Assembly (NCBI GenBank): GCA_028281795.1
Contig: JANQJE010000153.1
Location: 1 to 33,363 of the forward strand
Origin: Cohaesibacteraceae bacterium
GTDB taxonomy: Bacteria; Pseudomonadota; Alphaproteobacteria; Rhizobiales; MH13
Direction: 5' to 3'
Length of the DNA: 33,363 nucleotides
The notes under the pieces are model-generated. The model did no database searches, was not told where the DNA came from, and saw only the letters and a program-made list of their open reading frames with translations. This document shows, piece by piece, positions 8,711 to 33,363 of this stretch. A program made the position numbers and the translations under genes. Numbering within the stretch: position 1 is the stretch's first letter; every line of letters begins with the position of its first letter.

Positions 8711-9786
8711 CAGCCCGTCTGGCGCAGGGCTGCCTGCGTGTCCGGGTCGAACAGATGCACCTGATCGGGTGGGATGGCGAGGCCGACATTTTCACCGGCT
8801 TTCAGTGCGCTGGTCCCGTTTGTGACGAGTACCAGTTCCGGATCGTTCTCTGTGAACAGATAGCTGGACGATCCCGTCGCTTCGACAGCGGCTATGCGCG
8901 TCGGGACGGCGCCAGGTGCGTCGGGTGCAACGACCGAGACATGTTCAGGGCGTAGGCCCACGGTCACGGCTTGACCCGGCTGCATGGTCACATCGGTCGC
9001 GATTGTTGCGCCAAGCGCCGCGACGCTGGAGCCGTCTTCGGCCACAACGCCTGGGGCGAAGTTCATGGCCGGCGATCCGATGAAACCTGCCACGAACCGG
9101 TTGGCGGGACGCTCGTAGAGTTCGAGCGGTGCGCCTTGCTGCTCAATCACGCCAGCGCGCAGGACCACGACATGGTCGGCCATCGTCATGGCTTCGATCT
9201 GATCGTGCGTCACATAGACGGAGGTTGCACCGATCCTGTCGTGCAAGGCCCGGATTTCCTTGCGCATACGCACCCGCAAGGCGGCGTCCAGGTTCGACAG
9301 GGGCTCGTCGAACAGAAATGCCTTCGGCGAGCGGATGATCGCCCGGCCCATGGCTACCCGCTGGCGTTGACCGCCGGACAAGGCGCGGGGGAACCGGTCA
9401 AGCAGGTTTTCCAGACCGATGGTTTCGGCAACTTCCTGCGCGCGCTTTGCGCGTTCGGCTTTGGAGACGCCTTTCAAACGCAGCGCATAGGTGAGATTGT
9501 CGCGCACATTCATGTGAGGGTAGAGCGCGTACGACTGGAACACCATCGCCAGGTCCCGGTGGCGCGGCGCAAGATCGTTCACCAGCCGGTCCTCGATCCA
9601 CATGTTCCCGGCGCTGATCTTTTCGAGACCAGCGATGGTACGCAGAAGGGTCGACTTGCCGCATCCCGATGGCCCGACCAGCGCGACGAACCCGCCTTTG
9701 GGAATGGTCAGATCGACGCTCTTCAAGGCGTGGAACGCGCCATAGTGCTTGTCGACGTTCTCGATACGGATTTGAGGCTGACTCAT
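8710..9786 (-). CDS. Carbohydrate ABC transporter ATP-binding protein (UgpC/MalK-like)
   Basis: MSQPQIRIENVDKHYGAFHALKSVDL; Walker A GPSGCGKST; LSGGQRQRVAMGRAI; C-terminal TOBE-like region. Confidence 0.92.
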   Translation of the reverse strand: MSQPQIRIENVDKHYGAFHALKSVDLTIPKGGFVALVGPSGCGKSTLLRTIAGLEKISAGNMWIEDRLVNDLAPRHRDLAMVFQSYALYPHMNVRDNLTYALRLKGVSKAERAKRAQEVAETIGLENLLDRFPRALSGGQRQRVAMGRAIIRSPKAFLFDEPLSNLDAALRVRMRKEIRALHDRIGATSVYVTHDQIEAMTMADHVVVLRAGVIEQQGAPLELYERPANRFVAGFIGSPAMNFAPGVVAEDGSSVAALGATIATDVTMQPGQAVTVGLRPEHVSVVAPDAPGAVPTRIAAVEATGSSSYLFTENDPELVLVTNGTSALKAGENVGLAIPPDQVHLFDPDTQAALRQTG

Positions 9787-10610
9787 TTCAGGGCTCCGGA
9801 GGTCAGACCGTTGACGATCTGGCGTTGCAGGAGGACGAAGGCGGCGAGGATCGGCGTCACATAGGTCGCCGCGAAGGCCATAATCGCGTTCCAGTTCACC
9901 ACGTTGGGTTGGAGGAAATTCGTCATGCCGATGGACGCCGGTTGCAGGCGGTTGTCGGCGATCAGCGAGGCCGAATAGACGTATTCTCCGAAGCCCTGCA
10001 TAAAGATGAGAAGCGCGGCTACGAGGATGCCGTTGCGCGCCAGCGGCAGCACGATGAAGAAGAATGCCCCGGCGCGCGAGTTGCCATCGACGAGCGCCGC
10101 TTCCTCCAGTTCCCTTGGGATGGTCATGAAGGTTGCGCGGCAGAGAATGACGAAGAATGGCATCGTTTTCGCGGCGATGGCGAGCACGGCGGCCAGGCGC
10201 GGATAGTCGAGCAGGCCTATGGAGGCGAACCCGACAAAGATGGGCGTTACCATCAGGCTCGGCGGCAACACCTGAAGCATCAGGACTGTGAACAGCGCCA
10301 CATCGATCCAGCCATTGCGGTAGCGTGCAAGGACATAGGCTGCACCCGCTCCGATGATGGCCGTAATGGCGGTGACACCTGAGGCGATGAGCAGCGAGTT
10401 CCACAGATAGCGCGGGATGTTGGTGGTCGCCCAGACCTCCGCATAGGTGCTCCATTGCGGGTCTTCGGGAAGCAGCTGCGGCGGGACGGCGAAGATGGCC
10501 GAGCCGGTCTTCAGGCTGGTGACGTACATCCAGTAAAGCGGGAACAGGTAGATAACCGCCAGCAGTAGCGCAATGAGGAAGAGGATGCGGTTGTGAAGGG
10601 GTGATCGCAT
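9783..10610 (-). CDS. Carbohydrate ABC transporter permease (CUT1, MalG-like)
   Basis: MRSPLHNRILFLIALLLAVIYLFPLYWMYVTSLK; EAALVDGNSRAGAFFFIVLPLARNGILVAALL (EAA motif). Confidence 0.9.
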   Translation of the reverse strand: MRSPLHNRILFLIALLLAVIYLFPLYWMYVTSLKTGSAIFAVPPQLLPEDPQWSTYAEVWATTNIPRYLWNSLLIASGVTAITAIIGAGAAYVLARYRNGWIDVALFTVLMLQVLPPSLMVTPIFVGFASIGLLDYPRLAAVLAIAAKTMPFFVILCRATFMTIPRELEEAALVDGNSRAGAFFFIVLPLARNGILVAALLIFMQGFGEYVYSASLIADNRLQPASIGMTNFLQPNVVNWNAIMAFAATYVTPILAAFVLLQRQIVNGLTSGALK

Positions 10611-10618
10611 GGGCCGTC

Positions 10619-11521
10619 TCACATCCGCGTTTCGGCGCGCGTCGAGCGTACATAGACCAGCGACACGGCAAGCACGACGAGGATCATCATCACCGAGATC
10701 ACCGCGCCGCGCCCGAAGTCGAACTCCCGGAAGGACAATTGCCACGACCAGTACTGCGCCACGGTGGACGAGCCTGCTGGACCACCGGAGGTGATGGCGG
10801 CGAAGAGATCGAACTGTTGCAGTGTGAAGATGACCCCAAGTGCGAGAACGGCTCCGATGGTGGAGCGCATCATAGGCAGCGTGATCGTCCAGAATTTCTG
10901 CCAGGCCGTCGCACCATCCAGAGCCGCTGCCTCGTATAGGTCGTCGGGAATCGCGGCGAGCCCGACCGACAGCAGGATCATGTTGAACGGCATGCCGTAC
11001 CAGATGTTGGCAAGGATCACCGAGTAGAGCGACACGTCGATGTCGGAGCGCCAGAAGATCGGTTCGGAGATGAGCCCCATGCTCAAAAGGACGTGGTTGA
11101 TGACGCCAAAATCACCCGATAGCAGCCAGTTCCAAAGCACGCCGACGACAAGGCCAGGCATCACCCAGGCGGCCAGGAAGAGCCCTCGGAACCATGTCGC
11201 GCCCGGGAACTTCTGATGAAAGAACAGAGCAAACGCAAAACCGATGGTAAATTGAAAGGCAACCGATCCAACCGTGAAGATGATCGTGTTCCACAACACC
11301 ATCTGGGCCAGCGGGTCGCGGAAGATGGAGAGGTAATTGTCCCAGCCGGCGCCGGGGTGCAGCAGGGTCCCGAGCGAGAAGACGTCGACCTGCTGAAACG
11401 AGATGATGACATTGTAGAGAAGCGGCAGGCCGGCAAAGGCGAGCAGGTAGAGCAACGCAAAACCGATGAGCAGCGTATCGAAGCCGATGCCATCGCGCAT
11501 GCTTCTCAGAGGACCCATCAT
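10619..11521 (-). CDS. Carbohydrate ABC transporter permease (CUT1, MalF-like)
   Basis: Multi-TM; EAAALDGATAWQKFWTITLPMMRSTIGAV (EAA motif). Confidence 0.9.
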   Translation of the reverse strand: MMGPLRSMRDGIGFDTLLIGFALLYLLAFAGLPLLYNVIISFQQVDVFSLGTLLHPGAGWDNYLSIFRDPLAQMVLWNTIIFTVGSVAFQFTIGFAFALFFHQKFPGATWFRGLFLAAWVMPGLVVGVLWNWLLSGDFGVINHVLLSMGLISEPIFWRSDIDVSLYSVILANIWYGMPFNMILLSVGLAAIPDDLYEAAALDGATAWQKFWTITLPMMRSTIGAVLALGVIFTLQQFDLFAAITSGGPAGSSTVAQYWSWQLSFREFDFGRGAVISVMMILVVLAVSLVYVRSTRAETRM

Positions 11522-11540
11522 GGTGCTCCTGTTGGGTGGA

Positions 11541-11572
11541 TCAGGCGGCAATCCGGTGCCGCTGCCGCCTGA
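11541..11572. repeat. Perfect inverted repeat (intercistronic hairpin) between binding-protein and permease genes
   Basis: TCAGGCGGCA-N12-TGCCGCCTGA, 10-bp perfect stem, no T-tract. Confidence 0.7.
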
Positions 11573-11602
11573 CCTGTGTGCAGTGATCGGACCCCGATCC
11601 GA

Positions 11603-12820
11603 TCAGTTGAGGATACCATCGATGACGCTTTGTGCGTCATCAAGGGCTTCCTGCGGTTCTTTCTGGCCGGTTAGCGAGGACTGAATCGCGTCCTGAATGG
11701 CGCGGGAAATGCGCGGCCATTCGGGGTGTGGGCCACGGTTGGCGGCGTATTGAAGCTGCTCGGTGAACACTTCTGCTGCTGCGTCGATACGCGCATCGCC
11801 GGTCGAGGCGAGAGGAACGTCGACGCGGGAAGGCATGCGGGTAAACTCCGGCCACATGCGATGCGCCTGACTGTCAAAGTACTCCAGGAAGGCGAATGCT
11901 TCATCCGGGTGTTCGGTGTTGGCGAAGATCGCCAGATTGAAGTCACCCAAAGCTGAGGCGCGCGGGCCACCCTCTTCACGCACCGGAAGCAGCGTCACGC
12001 CCCAGTCGAAGTCCGCATCGGCCGCCATACGGCCAAGTTCCCATGGTCCGGAGATCACCATCGCGGCGTTGCCGCCATTGAAGGTTCCGGTGGAATCCCA
12101 CTGGCCGCGTGTCAGCGTGTCGGGGCTGGTAAGACCTTCATCGAGCAAAGTCTTCCAGAAGGAGAGCGCATCGGCCGCCCCATCGCCATTGACTTGCTCG
12201 AAGGAACCGCCGGTCATCTGCAGCCAGGGAAGGAACTGGAACGTGCCTTCTTCGGATGCCTTGGCGGAGAAGGCGATGCCATAGACATCATTGTCCGGAT
12301 CGGTCAGCGCGGAAGCGGCCTCGTAGAGTTCATCCCAGGTAGAAGGCGGATTGTCTGGATCGAGGCCGGCGGCTTCGAACAGATCCTTGTTGTAGTAGAG
12401 CGCGATGGTGTTGGAAGCACGTGGGATGCCATAGACGCCACCGTCCCAGGTGAAGGATGAGCGTGGACCGGGGAAGTAATTGTCCATGTCGATCTGGTCG
12501 GACGCTGTGGCGAGGTCCGTCAGATCGAGGAAGGCGCCACGTGCGGCAAAGGCTGCATGGTCGGGGTTGTCGATGGAAATGATGTCCGGATTGGTACCGG
12601 TTGCAAAGGCCCGCAGATTTTCCGTCACGATGTCATCGAAGCGGATCTCGCGAACGTCGATGGTGATGCCATTGTCCATTTCGGTGAACTCACCGGCGAA
12701 GGTGGCTTCGGCGCCGGTGGCGCTTTCGGTCCACAGGGTGAGCGTGACATCCTGGGCCGCGACGTTGGCGGTGGATGTCAGAAGCGCCGCGAAGGCAAGC
12801 GCTGTGAGTGTCTGTTTCAT
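11603..12820 (-). CDS. Carbohydrate ABC transporter substrate-binding protein (family 1/CUT1)
   Basis: Signal peptide [44 protein letters not shown]...[30 protein letters not shown]. Confidence 0.92.
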
Positions 12821-12880
12821 GATGGTCTCCCTTGTTGTCGGCGCCTTGGTGGCGCTTTTTGGATGTGGCTCTCCATAGGG

Positions 12881-14965
12881 TCAGGTGGGGGGCAAGAGTG
12901 CGGGGAAAGCCTGGGTGAAGCGTTGGATTGCGTCGGCGCGAACGAACACGCCGGGTTTGCCAAACGGTGCGTCGACGAGCGGCTGCGAGCCACCGCCATG
13001 GGTTTCTCCTGACCACACATGCACCCAGTCGGTGCCGTCAGGCAGCATGACGCGGAGCGTTGTCTCGCCAGGGTTCAGGACCGGAGCGACCAGCATGTCC
13101 GGTCCAAGCATGTAGCTCATGCCGTCGGCTCCAGCGTCTGTCTCGAAATGATAGAACAGCGGTGCCATCACCGGGTCGCCTGTCTTGGTGTAGTGGGCGA
13201 AAACCTCTTCCAGATAGGGTCTCAATGCCTCACGTACCTTCAGCAGGTCGGTCAGAACGGCCTCGACCTCCTCGCCAAAGGACCAGATCTCGTTCGGCCC
13301 ACCGGTGCTGGTGAAGATGTTGAATGTGTCCTGGCCGTAGCTCACCGGCTCCCCGTCCTCTGGAACGGGCACGCCTTCGGGCACACGGAAGCCATGCAGG
13401 CGGCAGATCGGCGAGAAAACACCGAATTCGAACCAGCGGATCAGCAGTTCGCGGAACGCGTTTGAGCCGCCATGACCGTCGTAAAACCCACCGATATCGG
13501 TGGTCCACCAGCCCATACCGGCCATTCCTGCATGCAGGCCCGCAGGTAGCTGTGCGCGGAACCAGTCCCAATCCGACCAGACATCGCCGGACCAGAGGAT
13601 CACGCCATGCTGCTGCGAGCCTGCCCAGGCGGATCGGCAGAGCAGCACACCATCTTGGTGACCCAGCGCATCGAGATTTTGACGGTAGTTGGCTTCGTGC
13701 AGGACCGGATAGCCGCTGAGCATTTCAGCGCCATTGCCAAGCGCCGTGCGGACATTTTCCGGATGGGCCGGCCTCATTTCCGGCTCGCACGCATCGAGCC
13801 AGAAATTCTTGAAGCCATTGTCGACGTAGTTCTCTTTCACCAGTTTCCAGTGGAAGTCACGCGCTTCAGGGTTGAAGGCATCGTAATAGGTGAAGAAGCC
13901 GGGCCCGAACGGGTCCTTGTCCGGGAACGGAATCATCACCGGTGAGCCACGCTCGGAGGTGAAGATCAATCCGCGCTCGGTCATGTGCTTGTAGTGGTCG
14001 GAGGCTGCGGACACCGTTGGCCAGATGGAGACCATGACCTCGATGCCCATGGCACCCAACTCGTCTACCAGGCCCTTGGGATCAGGCCATTCCTTGGGAT
14101 CGAACTTCCACTCGCCCTGACGGCTCCAGGCAAAGAAGTCGATGACGATGCAGGAGAGTGGGAGCCCGCGTGCTTTGTGTTCACGGGCCACGGAAAGGAG
14201 TTCGTCCTGTGTGCGGTAGCGCAGCTTGCATTGCCAGAAGCCCAATGCCCAATCGGGGATATCGGGCGATTTGCCCGTGGCGGTGATGTAGCTGCGCACA
14301 ATCTCGCGAGGGGTGTCTCCAGCAGTGATCCAATAGTCCAGCCCGTTGGTCGCGTCGGCTGTCCAGCGTGTAACGTTGCTGGCAAACTCGGCGCGTCCGA
14401 CGGCCGGGTTGTTCCACAGAAAGCCATAGCCGCGTGAGGAGACCACGAACGGGATCACCACATGGGCATTCTGCTGCATCAGCGTGGTGGAAACGCCTTT
14501 CAGGTCCATCCTGCCATGCTGCGGCTGGCCAAGACCCCAAAGCCGCTCACCATCATAGGCCTTGAACTGTTGTTCCAGTTTCCAGGAGCCCGATGCCAGG
14601 GCCTTGAAGTTGCGTGGACGCGGCCCGGCAAAATGAGAGCGGGTTTCACAGAGCAGTTCTTCACCCGTATCGGCGCGTACAAAGCGGAGCATCAGTTCGC
14701 GGCGAACGTCTGCACCATAGCGTGTTTTGATCCAAAGCTCGGCACGTAACCGGCCGCGCGTTATGGAAGCGGTTTCACCATCAATGGTGATCTCGGCATT
14801 CTGTCCATCGACGGGCAGAAGCGCATCGACATGCGGCGGCACAAGCTCCTGACCGGGACGCGCCCGCACACGCAGTGCATCCTCGCCCCATGGCTCGACC
14901 CGCAGTCGCTCTCCAAGAAAATCACAAACCAGCGCACTACCATCGCGTGTGAACACAGCGGTCAT
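12881..14965 (-). CDS. Glycoside hydrolase family 31 protein (alpha-xylosidase/alpha-glucosidase-like)
   Basis: GFWQCKLRYRTQDELLSVAREHKARGLPLSCIVIDFFAW; candidate catalytic FWLDACEPEMRP; WSGDVWSDWDWFRAQLPAGLHAGMAGMGWWTTDIGGF. Confidence 0.9.
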   Translation of the reverse strand: MTAVFTRDGSALVCDFLGERLRVEPWGEDALRVRARPGQELVPPHVDALLPVDGQNAEITIDGETASITRGRLRAELWIKTRYGADVRRELMLRFVRADTGEELLCETRSHFAGPRPRNFKALASGSWKLEQQFKAYDGERLWGLGQPQHGRMDLKGVSTTLMQQNAHVVIPFVVSSRGYGFLWNNPAVGRAEFASNVTRWTADATNGLDYWITAGDTPREIVRSYITATGKSPDIPDWALGFWQCKLRYRTQDELLSVAREHKARGLPLSCIVIDFFAWSRQGEWKFDPKEWPDPKGLVDELGAMGIEVMVSIWPTVSAASDHYKHMTERGLIFTSERGSPVMIPFPDKDPFGPGFFTYYDAFNPEARDFHWKLVKENYVDNGFKNFWLDACEPEMRPAHPENVRTALGNGAEMLSGYPVLHEANYRQNLDALGHQDGVLLCRSAWAGSQQHGVILWSGDVWSDWDWFRAQLPAGLHAGMAGMGWWTTDIGGFYDGHGGSNAFRELLIRWFEFGVFSPICRLHGFRVPEGVPVPEDGEPVSYGQDTFNIFTSTGGPNEIWSFGEEVEAVLTDLLKVREALRPYLEEVFAHYTKTGDPVMAPLFYHFETDAGADGMSYMLGPDMLVAPVLNPGETTLRVMLPDGTDWVHVWSGETHGGGSQPLVDAPFGKPGVFVRADAIQRFTQAFPALLPPT

Positions 14966-20605: not shown

Positions 20606-23600
20606 TCAGTGGAAATCGCGCGATTTGGGGATGATCCGCACATCGCGCGGATGACGATGGCGGCTTGGAACCTTCGCATCTTTCACCAGACCGCCTTTCA
20701 CGCTGTCCGCACGTGACAGCACAGGCCGTATGACTTCGTCAGCGCGGGCAAGGCTTTGCGGTGCCGTATGGAGCGTGGAGAGCGTGGCCAGATCATCGGT
20801 GCGGTCGTAAAGCGAGGTTGCCATCAAGTGGATGACGCCTTCCTTGCTCTTTTGCACATGACCCATCACCAGCATCAGCTTGGAGCCCATCACCTCGCGG
20901 CGGAACCGTTCGAACCGGCGTGCCCAGACGACCACATTCACGATGCCGGTTTCATCTTCCAGCGTGATGAAGATGGCGTTGCCCTTGCCCGGCCGCTGAC
21001 GGATAAGCACGACACCCGCTGTTTTCACCCAATAGCCGTCGCGGGTGTCAGCCACTTCCTGACAGGTCAGAACCTTCTGCGCCCTCAAGGTCGGCCGCAA
21101 CAGCGCCATGGGGTGAGCTTTCAGAGAAAGCCGCACGGTCTGGTAGTCGGCGACCACATGTTCAGCCAACGCCATGGCGGGCAGGTTGGCATCGGGTTCG
21201 GTGCTGAGTTCGTGCTGGCTGGCCGCCTCGAACAAAGGCAGCGGGATGTCGTCGGGAAGGCGGCGCACCGCCCATAGTGCTTCCCGGCGATCCATGCCGG
21301 TGGAGCGGAACGCATCGGCCTCGGACAGAAGCTTCAGCGCCCGATGCGGCAGGCGGGCGCAGCGCCAGAGATCCTCGACGTCCTCATAGGGCCGGGCGCG
21401 TGCGTCCACCAACTGTTCGGCCCACTCTTCATGGAAACCATCGACCTGACGGAAGCCAAGTCTGAGTGCCAGACTTCCATCTTCGGAGCGCTCCAGCGTG
21501 TTGTCCCAGGCGCTATGATTGATGTCGACGGCACGGGCTTCAACGCCGTTCTCCTGCGCATCGCGCACGATCTGGGCAGGAGCATAAAATCCCATGGGCT
21601 GGGCGTTCAAAAGCCCGCAGGCGAAGACGGCCGGGTGGTGGTGTTTGATCCAGGAGGAGATGTAGACCAGCTTGGCGAAGGAGGCGGCGTGGCTTTCAGG
21701 AAAACCATACTCGCCAAAGCCCTTGATCTGGTTGAAACAGCGCTCGGCAAAGTCGCGTTCATAGCCGCGTCGCACCATGCCTTCGACCATCATCTTCTCG
21801 AATTTATGGATCGTGCCCATGTGGCGGAAAGTAGCCATGGCGCGGCGTAGACCGTTGGCTTGTTCGGGGGTGAACTCGGCGGCGACCATGGCGATTTTCA
21901 TCGCCTGTTCCTGGAACAGCGGGACGCCCAGCGTGCGGCCGAGAACCCCTCGTAGTTCATTCTGATCGTGCGGCTGTGCGGGCGAAGGAAAGACAACCTC
22001 TTCTTCGCCGTTGCGCCGGCGCAGATAGGGGTGGACCATGTCCCCCTGGATCGGGCCGGGGCGCACGATGGCGACCTGAATGACGAGATCGTAGAATTCT
22101 TTGGGTTTCAGGCGCGGCAGCATGTTGATCTGTGCCCGGCTTTCCACCTGAAACACGCCGATGGATTCGCCGCGTTGAAGCATGGCGTAGACGTCTTCAT
22201 CGCCGTCTTCGATATCGGGCATGTCGAGCTTCAAGTCTTCATGATCGTCCAGAAGCGTCAGGCATTTGCGGATGCAGGTAAGCATGCCGAGCGCCAGCAC
22301 ATCGACTTTCATCAGGCCGAGCGCGTCGATATCGTCCTTGTCCCACTCGATGAAGGTACGGTCGTCCATCGCCGCATTGCCGATCGGAACCAGTTCGTCG
22401 AGCCGGTCGCGCGTGAGCACGAACCCGCCGACATGCTGGGAAAGGTGGCGTGGGAAACCCATGATCTGATGTGCCAGATCGAGCACGCGGTGGATGACGG
22501 GATTGTCCGGATCGAGCCCGGCTTCTCGGATGTGTTTGGCTTCCACCTCGCGGCCAAAGGACCCCCACACCGTGCCGGCCATGCGGGCCGTCACATCTTC
22601 GGTGAGGCCGAGAACCTTGCCGACCTCACGCAGGGCGCTGCGCGGGCGGTAGCTGATCACAGTGGCGGCGATACCGGCTCGCTCGCGGCCATAGCGTTCG
22701 TAGATGTGCTGGATGATTTCTTCGCGCCGTTCATGCTCGAAATCGACATCGATATCGGGCGGCTCCTTGCGTTCCGATGAAATGAAGCGCGCGAACAGGA
22801 GGTCATGCTCGGCCGGATCGACGGCGGTGATGCCGAGGACGTAGCAGACGGCGGAGTTGGCTGCCGAACCGCGGCCCTGGCACAAAATGCCCTTGTCGTG
22901 GGCAACCCGTACGATCTCGTGAATGGTGAGGAAATAGGGCGCGTAGTCGAGCTGTTCGATGAGAGCGAGTTCGTCCTTTAGCAGGCGCTTCACCTTCTCC
23001 GGGACGCCGGTGTGATAGTAGCGGTAGGGCGCATGGCGCCAGACCAGTTCCTCCAGCCAGGCCTGCGCCGTCTTGCCAGGAGGGATCGGTTCGTCGGGAT
23101 AGGTGTAGGCAAGCTGGTCGAGGGTGAAGTCTATGCGCGCGAGAAAGCTGTCCGTTTCAGTCAGAGCTTGCGGCGCATCACGGAACAGCCGGGCCATCTC
23201 CTTTGGTGATTTCAGATGGCGTTCGGCGTTGGCTTCCAGCCGTTTGCCGGCGTTCTCCAGCGTGCAGCCCTCGCGGATGCAGGTCACTACATCCTGCAAG
23301 GAGCGCTGACCGGGCTGGTGGTAGAGCACATCGTTGGTGGCCAGAAGCGGCACGTTGGTGCGTTCGCTGATGGCGATAAGACCGGCAAGACGGCGGCGAT
23401 CATCACCGGCATAACGCATGCTGGCGCCCAGCCAGACGGCCCCAGATGCTGTTTTCTGCAATTTCTGCAGAACAGCGTCGAGCATGGTGGTGTTCAGGGT
23501 ACTTGCCGGAGGTGGCATGACGATCAGAAGCAGCCCTCGCACATGGCGTAAAAGGTCATCGAGCGTGAGGATGCAGTCACCCTTTTCAGCGTGCTTTTTG

Positions 23601-23941
23601 CCATGCGTCAGTAGGCGGCAGAGCCGCCCCCAGCCCTCCCTGTTTTCCGGGTAGGCTAGAATATCCGGCGTGCCGTCGGCAAAGACGAGCCGTGCCCCCA
23701 CCACAAGCTGAAAGGCCTGTGCCATGGCGCGCGTTTCGTCGTCTTCATCTTCGCGAAGATCCTTCAGCGCGCGGTAAGCCCGCGCGACGCCTGAGACGCT
23801 GTTGTGGTCTGCGATGCCGATGCCCGTATGACCGAGTGCAAGAGCCTGGACGACCAGATCGCCAGGGTGTGAGGCACCGCGCAGGAACGAGAAATTGGTC
23901 GTCACCGCCAGATCGGCATAGTTGGGCGCGGACGTGTTCAT
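20606..23941 (-). CDS. dnaE2: Error-prone DNA polymerase III alpha subunit (DnaE2/ImuC)
   Basis: 1111-aa DnaE-type polymerase (YADLAVTTNFSFLRGASHPGDLV...GRGSAANSAVCYVLGIT...DIDVDFEHERREEIIQHIYERYGRE), in cassette with imuA/imuB. Confidence 0.97.
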   Translation of the reverse strand: MNTSAPNYADLAVTTNFSFLRGASHPGDLVVQALALGHTGIGIADHNSVSGVARAYRALKDLREDEDDETRAMAQAFQLVVGARLVFADGTPDILAYPENREGWGRLCRLLTHGKKHAEKGDCILTLDDLLRHVRGLLLIVMPPPASTLNTTMLDAVLQKLQKTASGAVWLGASMRYAGDDRRRLAGLIAISERTNVPLLATNDVLYHQPGQRSLQDVVTCIREGCTLENAGKRLEANAERHLKSPKEMARLFRDAPQALTETDSFLARIDFTLDQLAYTYPDEPIPPGKTAQAWLEELVWRHAPYRYYHTGVPEKVKRLLKDELALIEQLDYAPYFLTIHEIVRVAHDKGILCQGRGSAANSAVCYVLGITAVDPAEHDLLFARFISSERKEPPDIDVDFEHERREEIIQHIYERYGRERAGIAATVISYRPRSALREVGKVLGLTEDVTARMAGTVWGSFGREVEAKHIREAGLDPDNPVIHRVLDLAHQIMGFPRHLSQHVGGFVLTRDRLDELVPIGNAAMDDRTFIEWDKDDIDALGLMKVDVLALGMLTCIRKCLTLLDDHEDLKLDMPDIEDGDEDVYAMLQRGESIGVFQVESRAQINMLPRLKPKEFYDLVIQVAIVRPGPIQGDMVHPYLRRRNGEEEVVFPSPAQPHDQNELRGVLGRTLGVPLFQEQAMKIAMVAAEFTPEQANGLRRAMATFRHMGTIHKFEKMMVEGMVRRGYERDFAERCFNQIKGFGEYGFPESHAASFAKLVYISSWIKHHHPAVFACGLLNAQPMGFYAPAQIVRDAQENGVEARAVDINHSAWDNTLERSEDGSLALRLGFRQVDGFHEEWAEQLVDARARPYEDVEDLWRCARLPHRALKLLSEADAFRSTGMDRREALWAVRRLPDDIPLPLFEAASQHELSTEPDANLPAMALAEHVVADYQTVRLSLKAHPMALLRPTLRAQKVLTCQEVADTRDGYWVKTAGVVLIRQRPGKGNAIFITLEDETGIVNVVVWARRFERFRREVMGSKLMLVMGHVQKSKEGVIHLMATSLYDRTDDLATLSTLHTAPQSLARADEVIRPVLSRADSVKGGLVKDAKVPSRHRHPRDVRIIPKSRDFH

Positions 23942-25617
23942 CAGGCAAACAGCCCATGTACGAACCAGCCGGGATGCTCCGTTTCCCGGCTGTACAGTCC
24001 TTCACGGAACACCCAAAAGCGGCGGCCTTTTGTATCTTCCACCCTGTAATAGTCGCGGGTGAGGCCTGCATCCTCGGATCGCCACCATTCCGGTGCGATT
24101 CGTTGCGGACCCTCGGCGCGTGCCACCTCGTGCAGAACGCGCCGCCAGCGGAATTTCAGCGGTGGACCATCCGGGATCTCCGCCAAAGCCTCGATACGCT
24201 GTGGGTGTTCGAACATGTGGACGGGCAGGTTTGGCGGTTCACCGGGCTCCGGTGCAGCCCATTCAAGGTCCGGCATGGCGATGGACTGGGTATGGGTAAG
24301 CCGGTGATCGGGATAATCCTTGGCGGGCACCTCATAGGCAGCCCGTTCGGGGATATGGGTCTGCGCGCCGACAAAGCGCAGCACTGCCTGTTTGCCATAG
24401 CGTGTGCCGAGTTGGTCGATGAGCGCAGCCACGTCTTCATCGGCCATCTCATGGCCATCGAGACTGGTCTGGGCTTGCTGAAAGGGGGCGCATGCACCAA
24501 CGGACAAACGTAAAAGATCATAACCAAAGCCGGGGTCGAGCGGATCGGCGAGCGTGTCGATCCGTTCCCTGAAAAGACGCATGATCGGCTTTCCTGCCCG
24601 GGTCGGCAGCGATGTTTCCACGCGCAGGCGGCGTACGGCACCATCGGTACGAAACAGGCTTGCCTCGAAAGATTTGCCCCCTTCGCCGCGTTTCTCCAGC
24701 ATCCGTGCTGCCTGTTCGATCAGATGCTCGATGGTGGCGAGCACATCCTCCTGCCGGCCAATGGGTTCGCCGAAGCGGCGTTCAACCGTGCAGGGCGGCA
24801 AGGGCCGGCGTGGGACGATGGAGATATCTTCCTCACCCAGAACACGGGCAAGCTTGGTGATCAGGCCGGTGCCGAACCGGGCGGCCAGTGGCGTACGGGG
24901 GCGGGCGGCCAGATCGCCGATGGTGGCAAGGCCTGCATGGTTCAACGCAAGGTCGATGTCCCGGTCGATGCCGAGGGCAGCTATCGGCAGAGTAGCAACT
25001 GTCTCTGCTTCCTGCCCGGTTGGTATGATGGCTTGGGTCTTACCGATGGTAAATCGGGCGATGGCGCGAGCCGTGTCGGGTGTGGCGGCAATGGCTGTTC
25101 TGACATCCATACCGGCTTTGATGCAGCGCGCCTGCAGATCGTCTTGCAGGGCCCGTTCCCCACCAAACAGATGAGCGCAGCCGGTGATGTCGAGCAGCAC
25201 GCCACCCGGCTCATCCAGAGCAACCAGTGGTGTGTAGCGGTCGCAAAAATCGGCCATCAGTTCCAACCAGGCTCTGTCCGCCGTTCGATCCCTGTCCATG
25301 GCAACAAGACCCGGCACACGGGCGCGGGCATCAGCCAGTGTCAGACCGGGGGTAAGGCCAAGCGCCATGGCCTCACGGCTGACGGCCATGAGCCTGAGGG
25401 CGCTACGCTCCTTCTCGATGAAAACGATCGGCGCTTCAGCCTGTCCGTTTGAAGGGGCTGGCGGTTGGGCTGCCTGACGCTGCAACCGGTTGGCGGGCAG
25501 GAACGGAAACCACACGGCCAGATAGCGGCTTGCCCGGTGCCGGTTTGCCGAGCCTGGGTCTGACGCTCTGGACTCTGTTCCATTCGGGTTTGGAAAGTTG
25601 GAACTGGCCAAGGTCAT
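23941..25617 (-). CDS. imuB: ImuB, DinB-like Y-family polymerase-related protein
   Basis: RYLAVWFPFLPANRLQRQ...ALRLMAVSREAMALGLTPGLTLADARARVPGL; ATGA overlap with dnaE2; start chosen as ATG 25617. Confidence 0.92.
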   Translation of the reverse strand: MTLASSNFPNPNGTESRASDPGSANRHRASRYLAVWFPFLPANRLQRQAAQPPAPSNGQAEAPIVFIEKERSALRLMAVSREAMALGLTPGLTLADARARVPGLVAMDRDRTADRAWLELMADFCDRYTPLVALDEPGGVLLDITGCAHLFGGERALQDDLQARCIKAGMDVRTAIAATPDTARAIARFTIGKTQAIIPTGQEAETVATLPIAALGIDRDIDLALNHAGLATIGDLAARPRTPLAARFGTGLITKLARVLGEEDISIVPRRPLPPCTVERRFGEPIGRQEDVLATIEHLIEQAARMLEKRGEGGKSFEASLFRTDGAVRRLRVETSLPTRAGKPIMRLFRERIDTLADPLDPGFGYDLLRLSVGACAPFQQAQTSLDGHEMADEDVAALIDQLGTRYGKQAVLRFVGAQTHIPERAAYEVPAKDYPDHRLTHTQSIAMPDLEWAAPEPGEPPNLPVHMFEHPQRIEALAEIPDGPPLKFRWRRVLHEVARAEGPQRIAPEWWRSEDAGLTRDYYRVEDTKGRRFWVFREGLYSRETEHPGWFVHGLFA

Positions 25618-26308
25618 GATGCCACTCCACACGCCAGCTTTGTCCATGGGTGCCGGCTTTGTTGCGTAAAAGGGTGATGTCGAAGGTTGGGTGCCCTGGC
25701 GCATTGGCTTCCAAGGCGCGGGATGGTGCGCTGGCAACCTGCCATCGCGTGAAAGCTGCACTTGGCTGTTCATCGGTGGCGGCGCGCAGCAAAAAAGGTG
25801 TTACGCCGGACTTTTCCGCTGCCAGTGCCAGACGGCGCGTGGCTGTCAGATCAAGTTCCTTTGGCGCTCCCCAGGCTTCAATAATGACGCCTGCCAAAGA
25901 GGTGCAGCGTACGGCCTCCAATCCGGCAGACAGAAAATGGATCGGTTGACGCACACGCACGAAGATCAGGTTGGCTGGATCAAACCCGAGACCCGCAAGG
26001 CCATGCGGGTAAAGCCGCCCCGTTTCGCTCTCGCTCATGGTCTGACGTATCCAGACCACAGGCCGCTTTTTGCGCCGGTCCCGGCCAGCGATCCGTTGCA
26101 TGAAGCTTGCCGCAAAGCCGCTGGAAGATGCCATATCGGCTGTTTCTGCGGCATAGGTTTCGTGCAACATGGCCAGCCCTAGTCCGCCGCCCAGATGTGC
26201 ATCGATCTCGCTCACGCCAAAACCGACCTGACCATGTTTCAGGCCATAGGTTTGGGACGGCGCCAGCGTTTCAAGCTGGCGGCGTAGCTGATGGATCGCT
26301 TGGCTCAT
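25436..26308 (-). CDS. imuA: ImuA, RecA-like/SulA-related mutagenesis protein
   Basis: FGVSEIDAHLGGGLGLAMLHETYA...KKRPVVWIRQ...; upstream of imuB-dnaE2; alternative GTG start at 26311. Confidence 0.9.
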   Translation of the reverse strand: MSQAIHQLRRQLETLAPSQTYGLKHGQVGFGVSEIDAHLGGGLGLAMLHETYAAETADMASSSGFAASFMQRIAGRDRRKKRPVVWIRQTMSESETGRLYPHGLAGLGFDPANLIFVRVRQPIHFLSAGLEAVRCTSLAGVIIEAWGAPKELDLTATRRLALAAEKSGVTPFLLRAATDEQPSAAFTRWQVASAPSRALEANAPGHPTFDITLLRNKAGTHGQSWRVEWHHDLGQFQLSKPEWNRVQSVRPRLGKPAPGKPLSGRVVSVPARQPVAASGSPTASPFKRTG

Positions 26309-26318
26309 CACGTAATAT

Positions 26319-27000: not shown

Positions 27001-28095
27001 TCAAACGCCAGCAACCATGACATCTTCGACCGGTCGCCGTATCGACATGGGCAGAGCCGGTGCATGGCCAAACCGGATCACCAGATCCGGGCGGGCGTCC
27101 GGCTGACCCAGCCAGTTTGCGAATTCCAAACGGATGCTCTCGACCTCGACCGGTTGATTGACATGAGCTGTGCGGATGCCGAGCGCAGTGGCCTGCAAGG
27201 CAAAGCGCTCAAAACTCCGGCCGACCCTGATCCAGTGTTCCGGATCGGCACGATCGCCGATAAACACCGCAATCCCTGCCGATGAGCGGATATGGTCACG
27301 GTATTTGTCATTCTCGGCTTCCTCTGTGAAGAATCGGTCGAACATGAAACCTCCGAGTGGATTGGGCAGGACCGGATTGCCGGAACAGGCTGAAAACAGT
27401 CCATCCCGTGTGGTCATTGCTTCGTTCGGGCTGAAACGCAGCCACTCACGCAATTCCGCAACAAAGGCCGGATCGCGAATCTGTTGACTGTTGCCGGCTA
27501 CCACAAAGTCCAGAATGGCCTCGCGCTGTTCTGCATCTGTGAAGAACAGAACCTCGACACCGTCTTCCTGCGCTGCAATTTCCAAAGCTCGCATATCGTC
27601 CAATGAGAGTGCTTGTCCGTCATAGACGGAGCGGGTCGATTGGCGCAGTGGAATGGCATCATAAAGCTGGGAGCTTTGTGTGCCGCCACGGGCGAGTGCG
27701 ACATGGATTTCGGTCTCAGCGCCGGGCATGATTTCGACATCGGCAGGTCTGCCGTGCGCCGCAGCCGTCAGAACCAGATTTTCTGCGGCACAGCCAAGGC
27801 TGACAAAGATATGATGATGGTCAGGGTCGACCACCTCCGTCCCCCTGGTGAGATCGGGCAAGATGTCGATCTGCTGGCTATCCACGCGGAACATCCAGGG
27901 TTGGGTGTTGTGACCATTTGCGGCGAGGCAGGCATAGCGAACGAGTTCGGCAAGTTCGGGCGCATTGGCCAGTGCCTCGCGCTGGCGAGCAACTTCCTCG
28001 TTGTAGGCGTTAAGCCGTGGCCATCGTGCATAGCCCAACCCACCCAGTGCGACGGCAGATGCGCCTAGGATCAAGAGAGTGCGTCGAGACAACAT
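27001..28095 (-). CDS. Acg-family FMN-binding nitroreductase-like oxidoreductase with Tat-like signal
   Basis: MLSRRTLLILGASAVALGG; RYACLAANGHNTQPWMFRV nitroreductase-fold/Acg motif. Confidence 0.8.
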   Translation of the reverse strand: MLSRRTLLILGASAVALGGLGYARWPRLNAYNEEVARQREALANAPELAELVRYACLAANGHNTQPWMFRVDSQQIDILPDLTRGTEVVDPDHHHIFVSLGCAAENLVLTAAAHGRPADVEIMPGAETEIHVALARGGTQSSQLYDAIPLRQSTRSVYDGQALSLDDMRALEIAAQEDGVEVLFFTDAEQREAILDFVVAGNSQQIRDPAFVAELREWLRFSPNEAMTTRDGLFSACSGNPVLPNPLGGFMFDRFFTEEAENDKYRDHIRSSAGIAVFIGDRADPEHWIRVGRSFERFALQATALGIRTAHVNQPVEVESIRLEFANWLGQPDARPDLVIRFGHAPALPMSIRRPVEDVMVAGV

Positions 28096-28146
28096 GGCTT
28101 TTCCTTTCCTGTCTCAACTGGCTTAGGCGCTCTGACCGCGCGTTTG

Positions 28147-28160
28147 TTGATGACGGTCAA
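28147..28160. promoter_or_regulatory. FNR/FixK-type box upstream of the acg-like/flavodoxin operon
   Basis: TTGA-TGACGG-TCAA; centred about 58 bp upstream of the acg-like start codon; overlaps the end of the phosphoribosyltransferase gene. Confidence 0.65.
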
Positions 28161-28864
28161 CGCGAGGGTTGATTGCCGATCACCGGCCGTGCGTGGCTTT
28201 GCCGGACCGACTCCGCCGTGCTGCGGGCGAGCAGGCCGATAACCTCTGTGTCTTCGACCTGTGTGAAGTCGCGGTAGTGTTCTCCAACGGCATGGAAAGG
28301 CGACGGCGCCGAAAGGTACACAAGTTCGTCAACAAGCTCTTCGAACGTGCTGACGCTTTGCGCGGGCAGCACGGGGACAGCCAGAACGAGGCGCGCCGGA
28401 CGTGCTTTGCGCAGCATAGTGAGGGCTGCCTTGATGCTGCTGCCGGTGGCGATGCCGTCATCCACCAGAATGACGGTGCGTCCGCCGGGGTCAACCGCTG
28501 GACGATCACCGAGATACTCGCGACGGCGTTGCGCGATCTCCTCCAGCTTTCGCTTCATTTCTGCTTGGACGTAATCTTCGCTGGCGGCAATCAGGTGCGC
28601 CACGCGCTCGTTCAGGATCAGTTCCGGTCTTGGACCGTCGGCCACCGCGCCGATGGCCAGTTCTTTCTGATGCGGGGCTCCGATCTTTTTGACGAACATC
28701 GGTTCAAGCTGTGCATCGAGTGCAACGGCGATTTCATAGGCAACCGGTATCCCGCCGCGCGGCAAGCCAAGCACCAGGGGGTCAGCGTCTTTGAGGTGCG
28801 CGAGCTTTCGCGCCAGACGACGACCGGCGTCTGTACGATCTTCGGGAGCATCAAGGTTTGTCAT
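28157..28864 (-). CDS. Phosphoribosyltransferase family protein
   Basis: LVLGLPRGGIPVAYEIAVALDA; PRPP-loop VILVDDGIATGSSIKAAL. Confidence 0.92.
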   Translation of the reverse strand: MTNLDAPEDRTDAGRRLARKLAHLKDADPLVLGLPRGGIPVAYEIAVALDAQLEPMFVKKIGAPHQKELAIGAVADGPRPELILNERVAHLIAASEDYVQAEMKRKLEEIAQRRREYLGDRPAVDPGGRTVILVDDGIATGSSIKAALTMLRKARPARLVLAVPVLPAQSVSTFEELVDELVYLSAPSPFHAVGEHYRDFTQVEDTEVIGLLARSTAESVRQSHARPVIGNQPSR

Positions 28865-28908
28865 CACGTCCTTATCTCAAGGGCCTTGTGCCGTTGACCC
28901 CGTCTAGC

Positions 28909-29346
28909 TCAGGCGGCTTCAAGCAGTTTGATGATTGCCTCAATGGGCCGGTGCACATAGTTGCCCGCAATTTCCTTCAGGACGGCCCGTTGCACCCGGG
29001 TGCTCAGCGCCTCACGCAAAAGACCCAGCGTTTTGGCATCGGCGATCAGCACGACTTGCCGGTCGGCGTTGGTCTCAAGATCGTCATCGATCCACTTGGC
29101 CAAAGACCTGGCGAAGGCGGCCTTGTCCATCGCTTTCCAGTCGGTCTGTTCAACAGTTGTCATCCGCCCGCCGGAGACGGGGTAGCGTCCCGGTCTCTCG
29201 GTCCCCTGTTCACCGGCGCTTTGCAGCTGTTGTTCGTCGGTTGAACGGACCTGTAAATCCCACTGAACGGCTTTGCCGTGGTTTTCCAGAATCAGGTGCC
29301 GTTGACCGTCGGCCAGGATGACGAGAGCAGCATGCGGTAGCTTCAC
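28909..29346 (-). CDS. Host attachment family protein (protein required for attachment to host cells-like)
   Basis: VILADGQRHLILENHG...KAMDKAAFARSLAKWIDDDLETNADRQVVLIADAKTLGLLREALSTRVQRAVLKEIAGNYVHRPIEAIIKLL. Confidence 0.75.
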   Translation of the reverse strand: MKLPHAALVILADGQRHLILENHGKAVQWDLQVRSTDEQQLQSAGEQGTERPGRYPVSGGRMTTVEQTDWKAMDKAAFARSLAKWIDDDLETNADRQVVLIADAKTLGLLREALSTRVQRAVLKEIAGNYVHRPIEAIIKLLEAA

Positions 29347-29441: not shown

Positions 29442-29684
29442 TCAGGCCGCTTTGCTCAGATAGGCAGTAGCCAAGGCGGGCGTTGCGATCTGGGTGTACT
29501 CGCTCTCTGGTATGTCGATGCCGAAACGTGTGTGCAGCGCAGTGACCAGATTGAGAACGTCCATCGAGTCCAGTTCCAGATCGTCCTGGATGTGATCATC
29601 ATCCGATACCGTGTCGGGATCGATATCGGGCGCCACTTTGACCAGCTCTTCAAGGAAAGCGGCACGGATTTGCTGTGGGGTCAT
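29442..29684 (-). CDS. Acyl carrier protein
   Basis: 80-aa acidic protein with phosphopantetheine motif DDLELDSMDVLNLV; ATGA overlap with E2 gene. Confidence 0.88.
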   Translation of the reverse strand: MTPQQIRAAFLEELVKVAPDIDPDTVSDDDHIQDDLELDSMDVLNLVTALHTRFGIDIPESEYTQIATPALATAYLSKAA

Positions 29685-30889
29685 AGAGCCTCCGGGGTCT
29701 GCATCAGGTTTTCGAATTCGGTGAGGAACCGGGCGGCCTGACGCCCATCGCCGACCCGATGGTCGAGCGACAAGGTGACGGTAACGGTCTGGCGGGGAAC
29801 GACCGCGTCGCCAACAACCCATGGCCGGCGCTTTGGCGCGCCGATGCCGACCAATGCCACCTGCGGCGGGAAGATCACACCCGTCATGGCCTCCGCGCCG
29901 GTTTCGCCGAGCGCCGAGATGGTGATGGTTCCCATCGACATTTCCGAGCCGCGCAACCGGCCGGCCCGTGCGCGCGTGACCAGGTCGCGCATCGCGGCCA
30001 TGGTCTCGTCCAGTGTCAATGTCTCTGTGTCCATGATGGCTGGTGCCACCAGCCCGCCGCCACGCAACGCAACAGCCATGCCGGCATTGACCGTTTTGGA
30101 CGGCTGGAATCCGTCGTCATGATATTGTCCATTCACCACCGGAACTTTTGCAGCCGCAAACGCACCGGCACGCACAAAAAGCGCGCCGATCAGCAGGCGA
30201 TTGGCTGGCTCCCGATCCCGGTTGGCCTTTTCAAGCCATTCTGTTGCCGGTTTCAGGTCGATCGTCTGGCTGACATACAGATGCGGAATATCCCGATTGG
30301 CCCGTGACATGGCCGCTGCAATCGCTTTGCGCATTTCGGCCATGGGCGAGGAAGGCTTCGCGGCAGCGACTTCGGACGTTGTGCCAACGATGCGTTCCAC
30401 GTCGCCAAGCTGAATAACACCGCCCGGCCCCGATCCCTTCACGGTGGTCAGGTCAATGCCGTGTTCAGCCGCCCTGTGCCGTGCTGCCGGGGATGCGGCT
30501 AAGCCGCCAGACGGAAGAGCAGGCGTGGCCGGTCTGGGTGGTGCGGCCGGTGGAACTGGTGGTGGCGCAGCAGCTTCCTCGGACGGCGGTGCAGGTGCCG
30601 CCTTCGGCTCAACCACAACCGGTGCTGGTTTCGGCGCGGCTGGTGCCTTTTCGCCTTCGTCCAGAATCATGGCCAGAGGTGCGCCGACAGGCAGTTTTTG
30701 ACCGAGCTCGGCTTCCAGATGATGCACTGTGCCGGTCTGGAAAATCTCGATCTCGATGGCGCCTTTTTGTGTCTCGACGACTGCGATGACGTCGCCACGC
30801 TTGACCGTGTCGCCAGGCTCGATCAGCCATTCGACCAGCGTGCCGGCCTCCATGTCGGCTCCCAGCGAGGGCATTTCAAAAACGCCCAT
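29681..30889 (-). CDS. 2-oxo acid dehydrogenase E2 component (dihydrolipoamide acyltransferase)
   Basis: Lipoyl domain with ETQKGAIEIE, Pro/Ala linker, E3/E1-binding-like segment (SPAARHRAAEHGIDLTTVKGSGPGGVI), catalytic SLDHRVGDGRQAARFL. Confidence 0.93.
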   Translation of the reverse strand: MGVFEMPSLGADMEAGTLVEWLIEPGDTVKRGDVIAVVETQKGAIEIEIFQTGTVHHLEAELGQKLPVGAPLAMILDEGEKAPAAPKPAPVVVEPKAAPAPPSEEAAAPPPVPPAAPPRPATPALPSGGLAASPAARHRAAEHGIDLTTVKGSGPGGVIQLGDVERIVGTTSEVAAAKPSSPMAEMRKAIAAAMSRANRDIPHLYVSQTIDLKPATEWLEKANRDREPANRLLIGALFVRAGAFAAAKVPVVNGQYHDDGFQPSKTVNAGMAVALRGGGLVAPAIMDTETLTLDETMAAMRDLVTRARAGRLRGSEMSMGTITISALGETGAEAMTGVIFPPQVALVGIGAPKRRPWVVGDAVVPRQTVTVTLSLDHRVGDGRQAARFLTEFENLMQTPEAL

Positions 30890-30890
30890 G

Positions 30891-32885
30891 TCAGCGCCCC
30901 ATCATGGCTTTGACCCTGGCAACGATCTGCGGTGTTTGCGGGATCGCGGCGTCTTCCAGATGCTTCGGATAGGGGATCGGCACCTCGGCTGAGCACAGGC
31001 GGTCGACCGGCGCATCGAGATGCCAGAAACCCTGTTCCATGATCCGGGCGGAAATTTCGGCGGCCAGCGATCCGCTGCGCCAGCCTTCATCAATGATCAG
31101 GGCGTGGCGCGTGCGTGCCAGTGATCCGATGATCGTTTCGTCATCCAGTGGGCGCAACACGCGCAGGTCGATCACCTCGGCGTCAATGCCTTCCTTGGCG
31201 AGTTCTTCTGCGGCGTCCATCACCTTGTACAGTGATCCGCCATAGGTGATCAGCGATATGTCTTTGCCTGACCGGCGGATGGCAGCCTTGCAGATGTCCA
31301 CCGGACCGGCATTGGTGTCGATCATTCCGGTGCGGTTGTAGAGCATCACGTTCTCGAAGATGAGGACCGGATCGGGGTCTTCCAGCGCGGTCCAAAGCAT
31401 GCCGCGTGCGTCCTCGACCGTAGCTGGCGTGAGCACCTTAAGCCCCGGAATATGGGCGTACCAGCCTTCCAAGGAGTGGGAATGCTGGGCCGCCAACTGT
31501 TTGCCTGCGCCGGTCGCCATCCGAATGACCAGCGGTACACCGAACGCACCGCCCGACATATGCCGCATGGTGGCAGCCGTGTTGAGAATCTGGTCGAGTG
31601 CCAGCAGGCTGAAGTTCACCGTCATCAATTCAACGATCGGCCGCATACCAGCGGCGGCGGCCCCGATCCCGGCGCCAGTAAAGCCGGACTCCGAAAGCGG
31701 CGTGTCGCGGATACGGTCCTCGCCGAGCTCCTCCATCAGCCCTTTGGTCACCGCATAGCAACCGCCATAAGCGCCGACATCCTCACCCATCAGAAAGACG
31801 CGGTCATCGCGCTGCATGGCGTCGCGGATCGCCTGTTTGACCGCCTCCCTGTAGGTGATTTCGACGGTCTCGCCGGACGGTTCTGCGGGCGCGGGCTGTT
31901 GCTGTTGGTCGCCCAGAACGTGCTTTTCGAGATCTTCGACAGGCTCCCAGGTGCCGGCTTCGGAGAAGGCAACGGCCTCGGCAATCTCAGCGTCTGCATC
32001 GGCTTCGATTTTGGCGATATCGTCCCGGTGGATCAGTCCATTTTCCAGCAGCCAGCCCTGGAAGCGCACGATCGGTCCTTTGCCCCGCCACTCCTCGACT
32101 TCGTCCTTAGGCCGGTAGAGTTGCGCGTCGAACATGGAGTGGGCCCGGAAGCGGTAGGTCCGGCATTCCAGAAACACCGGCTCGCCGGTTTCGCGGATGT
32201 GCCCGACCGCCCGGCGCGCGGCCGCTTCGACCGCGACCACGTCCATCCCGTCGACGATCTCAGACTGAATGCCATAGGATGCAGCCTTCCGGTGAATGTC
32301 GGTTTCGGCTTCCGAACGGGCAAGCGCCGTGCCCATCGCGTAGCCATTGTTCTCGCAGACGAACAGGACCGGCAGGGACCATAGCCGGGCGAGGTTCAGC
32401 GTTTCATGAAACTCACCTTCGGCCACGGCGCCTTCGCCAAAGAAGCAGGCCGTGACGCCGTCATTGCCCTGCATTCTGTCGGCCAGCGCCAGTCCGCCGG
32501 CGAGGGGCAGACCGCCGCCGACGATGGCGTTGCCGCCATAGAAGTTGGTGTCCCTGTCGAACAGGTGCATGGAGCCGCCGCGCCCGCCTGAACAGCCTTC
32601 GGCCTTGCCGTACATCTCGGCCATCACCGTTGTCATCGGCACGCCACGCACCAGCGCATGGCCATGCTCGCGGTAGGTGGCGACGATGCGGTCCTCTTCA
32701 TTCAGAACCGGGATGATACCGGAGGCAATAGCTTCTTCTCCGTCATAGAGGTGCAGGAAGCCGCGTATTTTCTGCTGTGTGTAAAGCTCGGCGCATTTGT
32801 CTTCGAACCGGCGAATGCGGATCATGCTGGAGAGGAGTTCCAGAACATGGGTTTCGTCGAGGCGCGGTTTGTCGATCACACTCAT
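30891..32885 (-). CDS. 2-oxo acid (pyruvate-type) dehydrogenase E1, fused alpha and beta subunits
   Basis: 664 aa; N-half E1-alpha ([33 protein letters not shown]...[39 protein letters not shown]); C-half E1-beta ([40 protein letters not shown]). Confidence 0.93.
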
Positions 32886-33363
32886 GTTTCGTCGGTCTCC
32901 AGTGTTGAGATGTCGCCTTCAGGCAGGCCCAGCTCACGCGCTTTCAGCAGTCGGCGCATGATCTTGCCCGACCGAGTTTTGGGCAGGGTTTTCCGGAAGA
33001 CGATTTCGCGCGGAGCCACGGCCGGACCCAGCTTCTTGCGGGCATGGCCGCGGATGGCACGTTCCAGTTCTTCGGAGTGCTCAAAACCGGGGTTGAGCAC
33101 CACATAGGCTTTGACGACCTCGCCGGCCGTTTCGTCCGGAACGCCGATTACCCCGGCTTCTGCAATCGCGTCATGTTCAATGAGCGCGCTTTCGACCTCG
33201 AATGGGCCGATCAGATGGCCGGACGACTTGATCAGATCGTCGGCGCGGCCAACGAACCAGAAATAGCCGTCGCTATCGCGCATCGCCAGGTCGCCGGACA
33301 GGTACCAGCCGTCGACGAAACACTTGTCGTAACGCGCCTGCTCATGGAGGTAGGTCCGCATCA
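32882..33363 (-). CDS. Acyl-/acetyl-CoA synthetase (AMP-forming), C-terminal part; N-terminus outside window
   Basis: [58 protein letters not shown]...[19 protein letters not shown] overlap with E1 gene. Confidence 0.92.

Follow-up and report, generated by a model that had tools for sequence, protein, structure and literature searches.

A conserved acsA-E1-E2-acp operon of Pseudomonadota pairing a divergent pyruvate dehydrogenase-type E2 with a dedicated acyl carrier protein as its candidate acetyl acceptor

The stretch of DNA analysed here, 33,363 nucleotides of a Cohaesibacteraceae bacterium that make up the entire contig C63 (hereafter the window), ends on the right with a four-gene operon, which is best read, with somewhat better than even confidence, as an accessory pyruvate dehydrogenase unit passing acetyl from a lipoyl-E2 to a dedicated acyl carrier protein (ACP), instead of CoA or besides it. 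The end product of the textbook pyruvate dehydrogenase is acetyl-CoA; if the reading is true, some bacteria also form protein-bound acetyl in primary metabolism. To our knowledge, the E1-E2-ACP arrangement is otherwise known only from a few antibiotic pathways. An earlier report of an acsA-E1-E2-acp operon was not found in the literature searched, which mostly did not extend to subscription papers, and a prior mention is possible.

Gene set and layout of the operon

The genes lie on the minus strand and follow each other, in the order of transcription, as an AMP-forming acetate--CoA ligase, a fused E1 alpha-beta, an E2 and an ACP, with the start of each gene overlapping or abutting the stop of the gene before, as read from the sequence. 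The features are as follows.

32882..33363, minus strand: AcsA, AMP-forming acetate--CoA ligase, C-terminal part of at least 159 aa, cut by the contig end (Pfam/NCBIfam)
30891..32885, minus strand: fused E1 alpha-beta, a thiamine-diphosphate 2-oxo acid dehydrogenase of 664 aa, passing the NCBIfam cut-off for pyruvate dehydrogenase E1 alpha
29681..30889, minus strand: E2 of 402 aa, with a lipoyl domain (Lys42 in ETQKG), an E3-binding domain and a catalytic domain with DHRVGDG
29681..29695, minus strand: shortened E2 C-terminus (PEAL-stop), without the last hydrophobic pair of cage-forming E2s
29681..29684, minus strand: ATGA overlap of E2 stop and ACP start, translational coupling (overlap in 50 of 51 loci)
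29442..29684, minus strand: dedicated ACP of 80 aa, phosphopantetheine Ser40 in LELDSMD (PF00550; invariant DS.D; differs from the housekeeping AcpP)

Pfam and NCBIfam were concordant on the identities of the operon proteins. The ligase is incomplete because the contig, which belongs to a fragmented assembly (3.33 Mb, 78.6% complete), ends inside its gene. The 3' end of the E2 gene reads GAG-GCT-CTA-TGA, with the ATG of the ACP sharing the stop as ATGA and an SD-like GGAGG standing four bases 5' of this ATG; the version of 126 aa given in the ORF table, which reaches 29822, was rejected as an in-frame upstream extension of the ACP of 80 aa.

Conservation and co-occurrence of the four genes

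The search with the ACP alone, at one genome per species, returned 34 loci, in 33 of which an E2 lies directly upstream of the ACP and in 30 of which all four genes stand in the same order. The incomplete loci include two that are cut by contig ends (L029, L044) and one without acs and most of E1 (L034); in L047, also among the 34, the ACP occurs without the operon. With the ACP profile run against 399 Pseudomonadota genomes, 14 ACPs were found to have E2 and E1 directly upstream, the other and mostly weaker matches having no E2 or E1 close by and resembling ordinary ACPs. The E2 profile gave, in the same genomes, 14 matches at 510-587 bits, the next best being at 309 bits. A sequence-only reading of the window had named the lack of co-occurrence of E2 with this ACP as the genetic ground for abandoning their link, and the genomes strongly contradict such a lack, since those carrying the E2 lineage are those carrying the ACP (14/14 both ways), although the E2 profile had been built with members from most of these 14 genomes, so that the match is not a blind discovery of them. 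No E2 of the ACP-linked clade without an ACP, which the E2 profile is able to reveal, was seen among the 399 genomes. The ATGA overlap, reported from the window in the same reading, likewise proved to be kept in all but one of the loci compared.

In the 18-kb regions taken from the other 13 of these 14 genomes, the window's own being the fourteenth, a single strand carries acsA, E1 (as a fused gene or as two), E2 and ACP in every case. The same gene order, acsA-E1-E2-acp, is seen again in Rhodobacterales, Hoeflea-type bacteria, Methylocystis, Azospirillum and Cupriavidus, and the unit is plasmid-borne in Leisingera, Methylocystis rosea, Azospirillum oryzae, Ciceribacter thiooxidans and Cupriavidus oxalaticus, by which carriers it spans at least the Alpha- and Betaproteobacteria. 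Between these two classes the order and the overlap are held down to about 27-46% of ACP identity; the ACP and E2 distances correlate (Spearman 0.87), as co-inheritance predicts; and a genome of the same genus (G003, locus L009) has the full gene set with an ACP 87% identical to that of the window. The patchy spread of the unit, present in two of the four genomes of the genus and in 14 of the 399 of the phylum, fits an accessory, mobile trait. No natural fusion of E2 with ACP was seen, the ACP beginning in another, overlapping frame.

That the pairing reflects chance or an inherited neighbourhood, with no functional link between the genes, is scarcely credible: operons may hitch-hike between genomes, and this one travels on plasmids in several hosts, but the genes outside the four vary where their order and overlap stay exact from Alpha- to Betaproteobacteria. 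The chance neighbour was rejected as a candidate on the co-occurrence in both directions, together with the kept overlap.

The operon ACP and the housekeeping AcpP

The window ACP matches PF00550 at 38.3 bits (cut-off 20.8), and its D39, S40 and D42 are invariant throughout an alignment of 20 sequences that includes the housekeeping AcpP. It does not reach the cut-off of any NCBIfam ACP model, scoring 46 bits against the 70 required by the AcpP model. The helix II glutamates of AcpP aid its binding to the fatty-acid enzymes. At these positions, in the E. coli-type AcpP numbering, the place of Glu41 is taken by Asn in 49 of 51 loci, of Glu47 by His in 42 of 51 and of Glu49 by Arg in 44 of 51, a replacement that makes a partner other than the fatty-acid enzymes likely; judged by its residues, the operon ACP departs from the FAS-type recognition.

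The genome's own AcpP is encoded on contig C197, beside fabG and fabD, and has 28% identity to the operon ACP, which rules out the candidate identity of the two. They have in common the PF00550 family, the DSxD site and the acidic character, and differ in that the operon ACP is without the helix II Glu positions and lies away from the fab genes. Two statements of the sequence-only reading are upheld by these comparisons, namely that the phosphopantetheine serine is kept, the DSxD being invariant in the alignments, and that the ACP is dedicated, a distinct AcpP being present beside fabG/fabD. One phosphopantetheinyl transferase (PPTase), of the AcpS family, is encoded in the genome.

An ACP so placed could also be thought of as the dedicated octanoyl donor for the lipoylation of its E2, by the route from octanoyl-ACP through LipB to LipA. 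LipB modifies the E2 lipoyl domains from octanoyl-ACP. It recognises chiefly the C8-phosphopantetheine arm, with weak ACP binding (PMC9307952), so that a divergent ACP could serve. This role is very improbable, since the genome has an AcpP already, as well as two further E2s whose lipoylation presumably needs no ACP of this kind, the replaced acidic positions of helix II make it unlikely that the octanoyl-making enzymes would recognise the operon ACP, and the presence of Acs is left unexplained.

At L047 (3068-3301), the orphan ACP, which shares 58% identity with that of the window and lacks E1-E2, is flanked by LpxA/LpxD-like acyltransferases on one side and by an MBOAT membrane O-acyltransferase on the other (516-1328, 1356-2393, 3627-5057), a setting that possibly hints at the type of client for such ACPs.

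Domains, lineage and C-terminus of the E2

The 2-oxoacid_dh, Biotin_lipoyl and E3_binding domains of the E2 are all above the Pfam cut-offs, the lipoyl K42, H377 and D381 are invariant in the ACP-linked E2s with the HRxxDG active site kept, and in structure prediction (mean pLDDT 84) the fold matches the E2 cores in the PDB. The protein is nevertheless below every E2 equivalog cut-off of NCBIfam, with the best score of 237 bits vs 445, and the Methylocystis member scores 208 bits. The catalytic-domain tree, for which the comparison set was limited to 19 non-ACP E2s, places the ACP-linked E2s in a single clade with support of 100/99; the stem leading to it is long, at 1.34 changes per site. When compared with 17 other E2s, the ACP-linked ones differ consistently at about a dozen positions; among the changes are an invariant Arg276 inserted in the loop RGGGL and a missing Arg in the helix motif IAxRL.

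The C-terminus is changed as well: 20 residues follow DHRxxDG in 46 of 51 ACP-linked E2s, as against 22 or more in each of 17 other E2s, and the terminal hydrophobic pair is found in 1 of 51, as against 15 of 15 PDH-type controls, the loss amounting to two residues and to no whole domain. In cage-forming E2s, the trimers are held together as cages by a conserved knob-into-hole contact, for which a short helix at the C-terminus provides the knob, and CoA gets to the active site from the cage interior (PMC8421416). The actinobacterial E2p stays trimeric through its altered C-terminus (PMC10415282). With the knob missing, the ACP-linked E2 may therefore be an open trimer and not a closed cage, with the acceptor side reachable by a protein-borne thiol, and it is quite possible that the use of CoA is retained. 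The C-termini of the operon E2 and of the actinobacterial E2p (AceF), the latter belonging to a trimeric PDH/ODH supercomplex, both depart from the cage-forming knob, but AceF does it by an insertion of three residues and has no ACP, whereas the operon E2 is shortened by two (PMC10415282).

E1, the ligase and the supply of E3

The E1 scores 441 bits with TIGR03182, the model of pyruvate dehydrogenase E1 alpha (cut-off 394), and 402 bits with NF006667 (cut-off 321), which makes pyruvate, as judged from these models, the likely substrate. No E3 gene is found in the operon; two lpd genes above the cut-off are present elsewhere in the window's genome, each sharing its contig with an ordinary E2, and the lipoamide dehydrogenases encoded there can supply E3. 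A full-length orthologous ligase reaches 821 bits with PRK04319 (cut-off 729).

The AMP-forming ligase belongs to the four-gene unit as a constant part, and this, with the related L047 ACP lying beside an MBOAT gene and without E1-E2, so that other loaders or acceptors are possible, leads to the thought that the ligase, rather than the E2, loads the ACP, with E1-E2 merely supplying acetyl-CoA or acetate nearby. Pairs of the DltA/DltC type are the model for such loading. It is nonetheless quite improbable here, as the ACP gene is coupled by the ATGA to E2 and not to acsA, and as Acs passes the cut-off of an ordinary acetate--CoA ligase.

An unlikely, though weightier, alternative is that the operon serves to form acetyl-CoA under stress, from both pyruvate and acetate, the ACP belonging to E2 as a subunit with a structural or regulatory role and carrying no acetyl flux. 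The model is the mitochondrial acyl-ACP, which acts as a subunit both in complex I and in Fe-S assembly. Acs and PDH, in their textbook form, both yield acetyl-CoA, the E1 of the operon scores as an ordinary E1 of pyruvate dehydrogenase and its Acs as an ordinary acetate--CoA ligase, the catalytic residues of E2 are intact, and an ACP client is not conserved beside the operon; against this, the E2 stands in a lineage of its own and its C-terminus is changed, and the E1-E2-ACP sets known so far serve acyl loading.

Likeness to known systems

From the alphaproteobacterial pyruvate dehydrogenase complex (E1 alpha-beta type), with which it shares the E1 score and the lipoyl, E3-binding and catalytic domains of E2, the operon differs by an E2 that is far under the PDH E2 cut-offs, in a clade of its own and with the shortened C-terminus, by the lack of an E3 gene and by the added acs and acp; the earlier remark that an ACP is no part of the textbook complex stands.

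In the work on the Qnc and Nap systems, the C2 unit reportedly passes from the lipoyl group to the ACP thiol, and NapB/NapD of naphthyridinomycin is a further set like Qnc (quinocarcin) and Scl (scleric acid). QncN/QncL/QncM and SclQ1-4, the latter being an ACP, E1 alpha, E1 beta and E2, are the E1/lipoyl-E2/ACP sets making glycolyl-ACP for NRPS in Streptomyces, the C2 unit moving first from thiamine diphosphate to the lipoyl group (PMC6335953). The common trait of these sets and the operon is that E1, a lipoyl-E2 acyltransferase and a free-standing ACP are encoded together. The Qnc and Scl sets take in ketose phosphates, feed NRPS and belong to Streptomyces hosts, whereas the operon has a pyruvate dehydrogenase-like E1, an acetate--CoA ligase in place of the NRPS context and hosts of Pseudomonadota; QncL is a fusion of E1 beta to E2, whereas in the operon E1 alpha and beta are fused, or all are separate. 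An adjacent NRPS/PKS, as in Qnc/Scl, is absent beside the operon in the loci compared, and no ACP was found beside the one Streptomyces plasmid E2 inspected. By analogy of the gene set, the operon would work like the Qnc/Scl platform; membership in it is not claimed, because there is no NRPS client here.

Proposed route of the acetyl unit

The steps from E1 to the lipoyl-E2 are established chemistry of the 2-oxo acid dehydrogenase family. In the favoured reading, that of lipoyl-E2 handing acetyl to the ACP, the E1 would decarboxylate a 2-oxo acid, most likely pyruvate, to hydroxyethyl-ThDP, and the acetyl would move from E1 onto the lipoyl arm of E2 as acetyl-lipoyl. At the E2 core, the acceptor would be the phosphopantetheine thiol on the ACP translated together with E2, in place of free CoA or alongside it, the ACP having been turned into its holo form by AcpS, and the lipoyl arm would be re-oxidised by the E3 (lipoamide dehydrogenase) encoded elsewhere on the chromosome. 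The knob-less E2 would probably be an open trimer, and the acceptor side of its active-site channel, which in ordinary E2s faces the inside of the cage, would lie open to a protein-borne acceptor. The ligase may add acetate to the pool, as acetyl-CoA or directly as acetyl-ACP, and the client of acetyl-ACP would be encoded outside the operon. The transfer from lipoyl-E2 to ACP is inferred on four grounds: the coupling is strict, the E2 lineage stands apart, its C-terminus is altered, and the Qnc/Scl sets are a precedent.

A broader reading, in which the uncaged E2 trimer and the ligase together charge the ACP and acetyl-ACP acts as a CoA-independent acetyl currency, the unit being a widespread variant of PDH in primary metabolism, is offered tentatively and falls somewhat short of even confidence. 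The tie between the presence of the ACP and the shortening of the E2 C-terminus provides a structural test of the acyl-acceptor choice of E2. The question is testable now, as culturable carriers are found in Leisingera, Methylocystis, Azospirillum and Cupriavidus.

Neighbourhood of the operon

Across the loci compared, no conserved neighbour outside the four genes, whether NRPS/PKS or another ACP client, was found. The sequence-only reading had seen no ketosynthase or other ACP client in the window, and this holds more widely, no ketosynthase being conserved beside the operon in the other genomes. A conserved client adjoining the operon was rejected as a candidate, since the neighbours differ from locus to locus, such as a PPK2-like gene at L009 and a P-type ATPase-like one in eight loci, both assigned by reading.

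Stress genes lie near the operon in roughly one third of 50 loci, those of the Usp, Hsp20 and Crp type being found only in some, in Leisingera, Oceaniradius, Roseitalea and Azospirillum. A low-oxygen island as the general home of the operon was therefore set aside as a frequent but not a defining setting, and the stress neighbours are hints of low-oxygen or stress use, without defining the function. On the Leisingera plasmids (L078:2755-19400, L081), the operon is part of an island that also carries ppsA, a hexose kinase gene and genes of the Usp, Hsp20, CBS-domain and Crp/Fnr kinds. In the window, the genes adjoining the operon (27001-29346) encode an FMN oxidoreductase of the Acg family (Rv3131-type), a phosphoribosyltransferase and a host_attach/baeRF12 protein, a group that resembles the hypoxia/stress islands.

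Farther from the operon, the overlapping genes at 20606-26311 form an imuA-imuB-dnaE2-like cassette, known as an SOS mutagenesis set, with the imuA assigned by reading and the rest based on a C-family DNA polymerase and an impB/mucB-type protein. The region 7103-14965, with a solute-binding protein and a MalK-type ATPase of a sugar ABC importer, a GH31 glycosidase and a GMC oxidoreductase, is an ordinary cluster for alpha-glucoside use.
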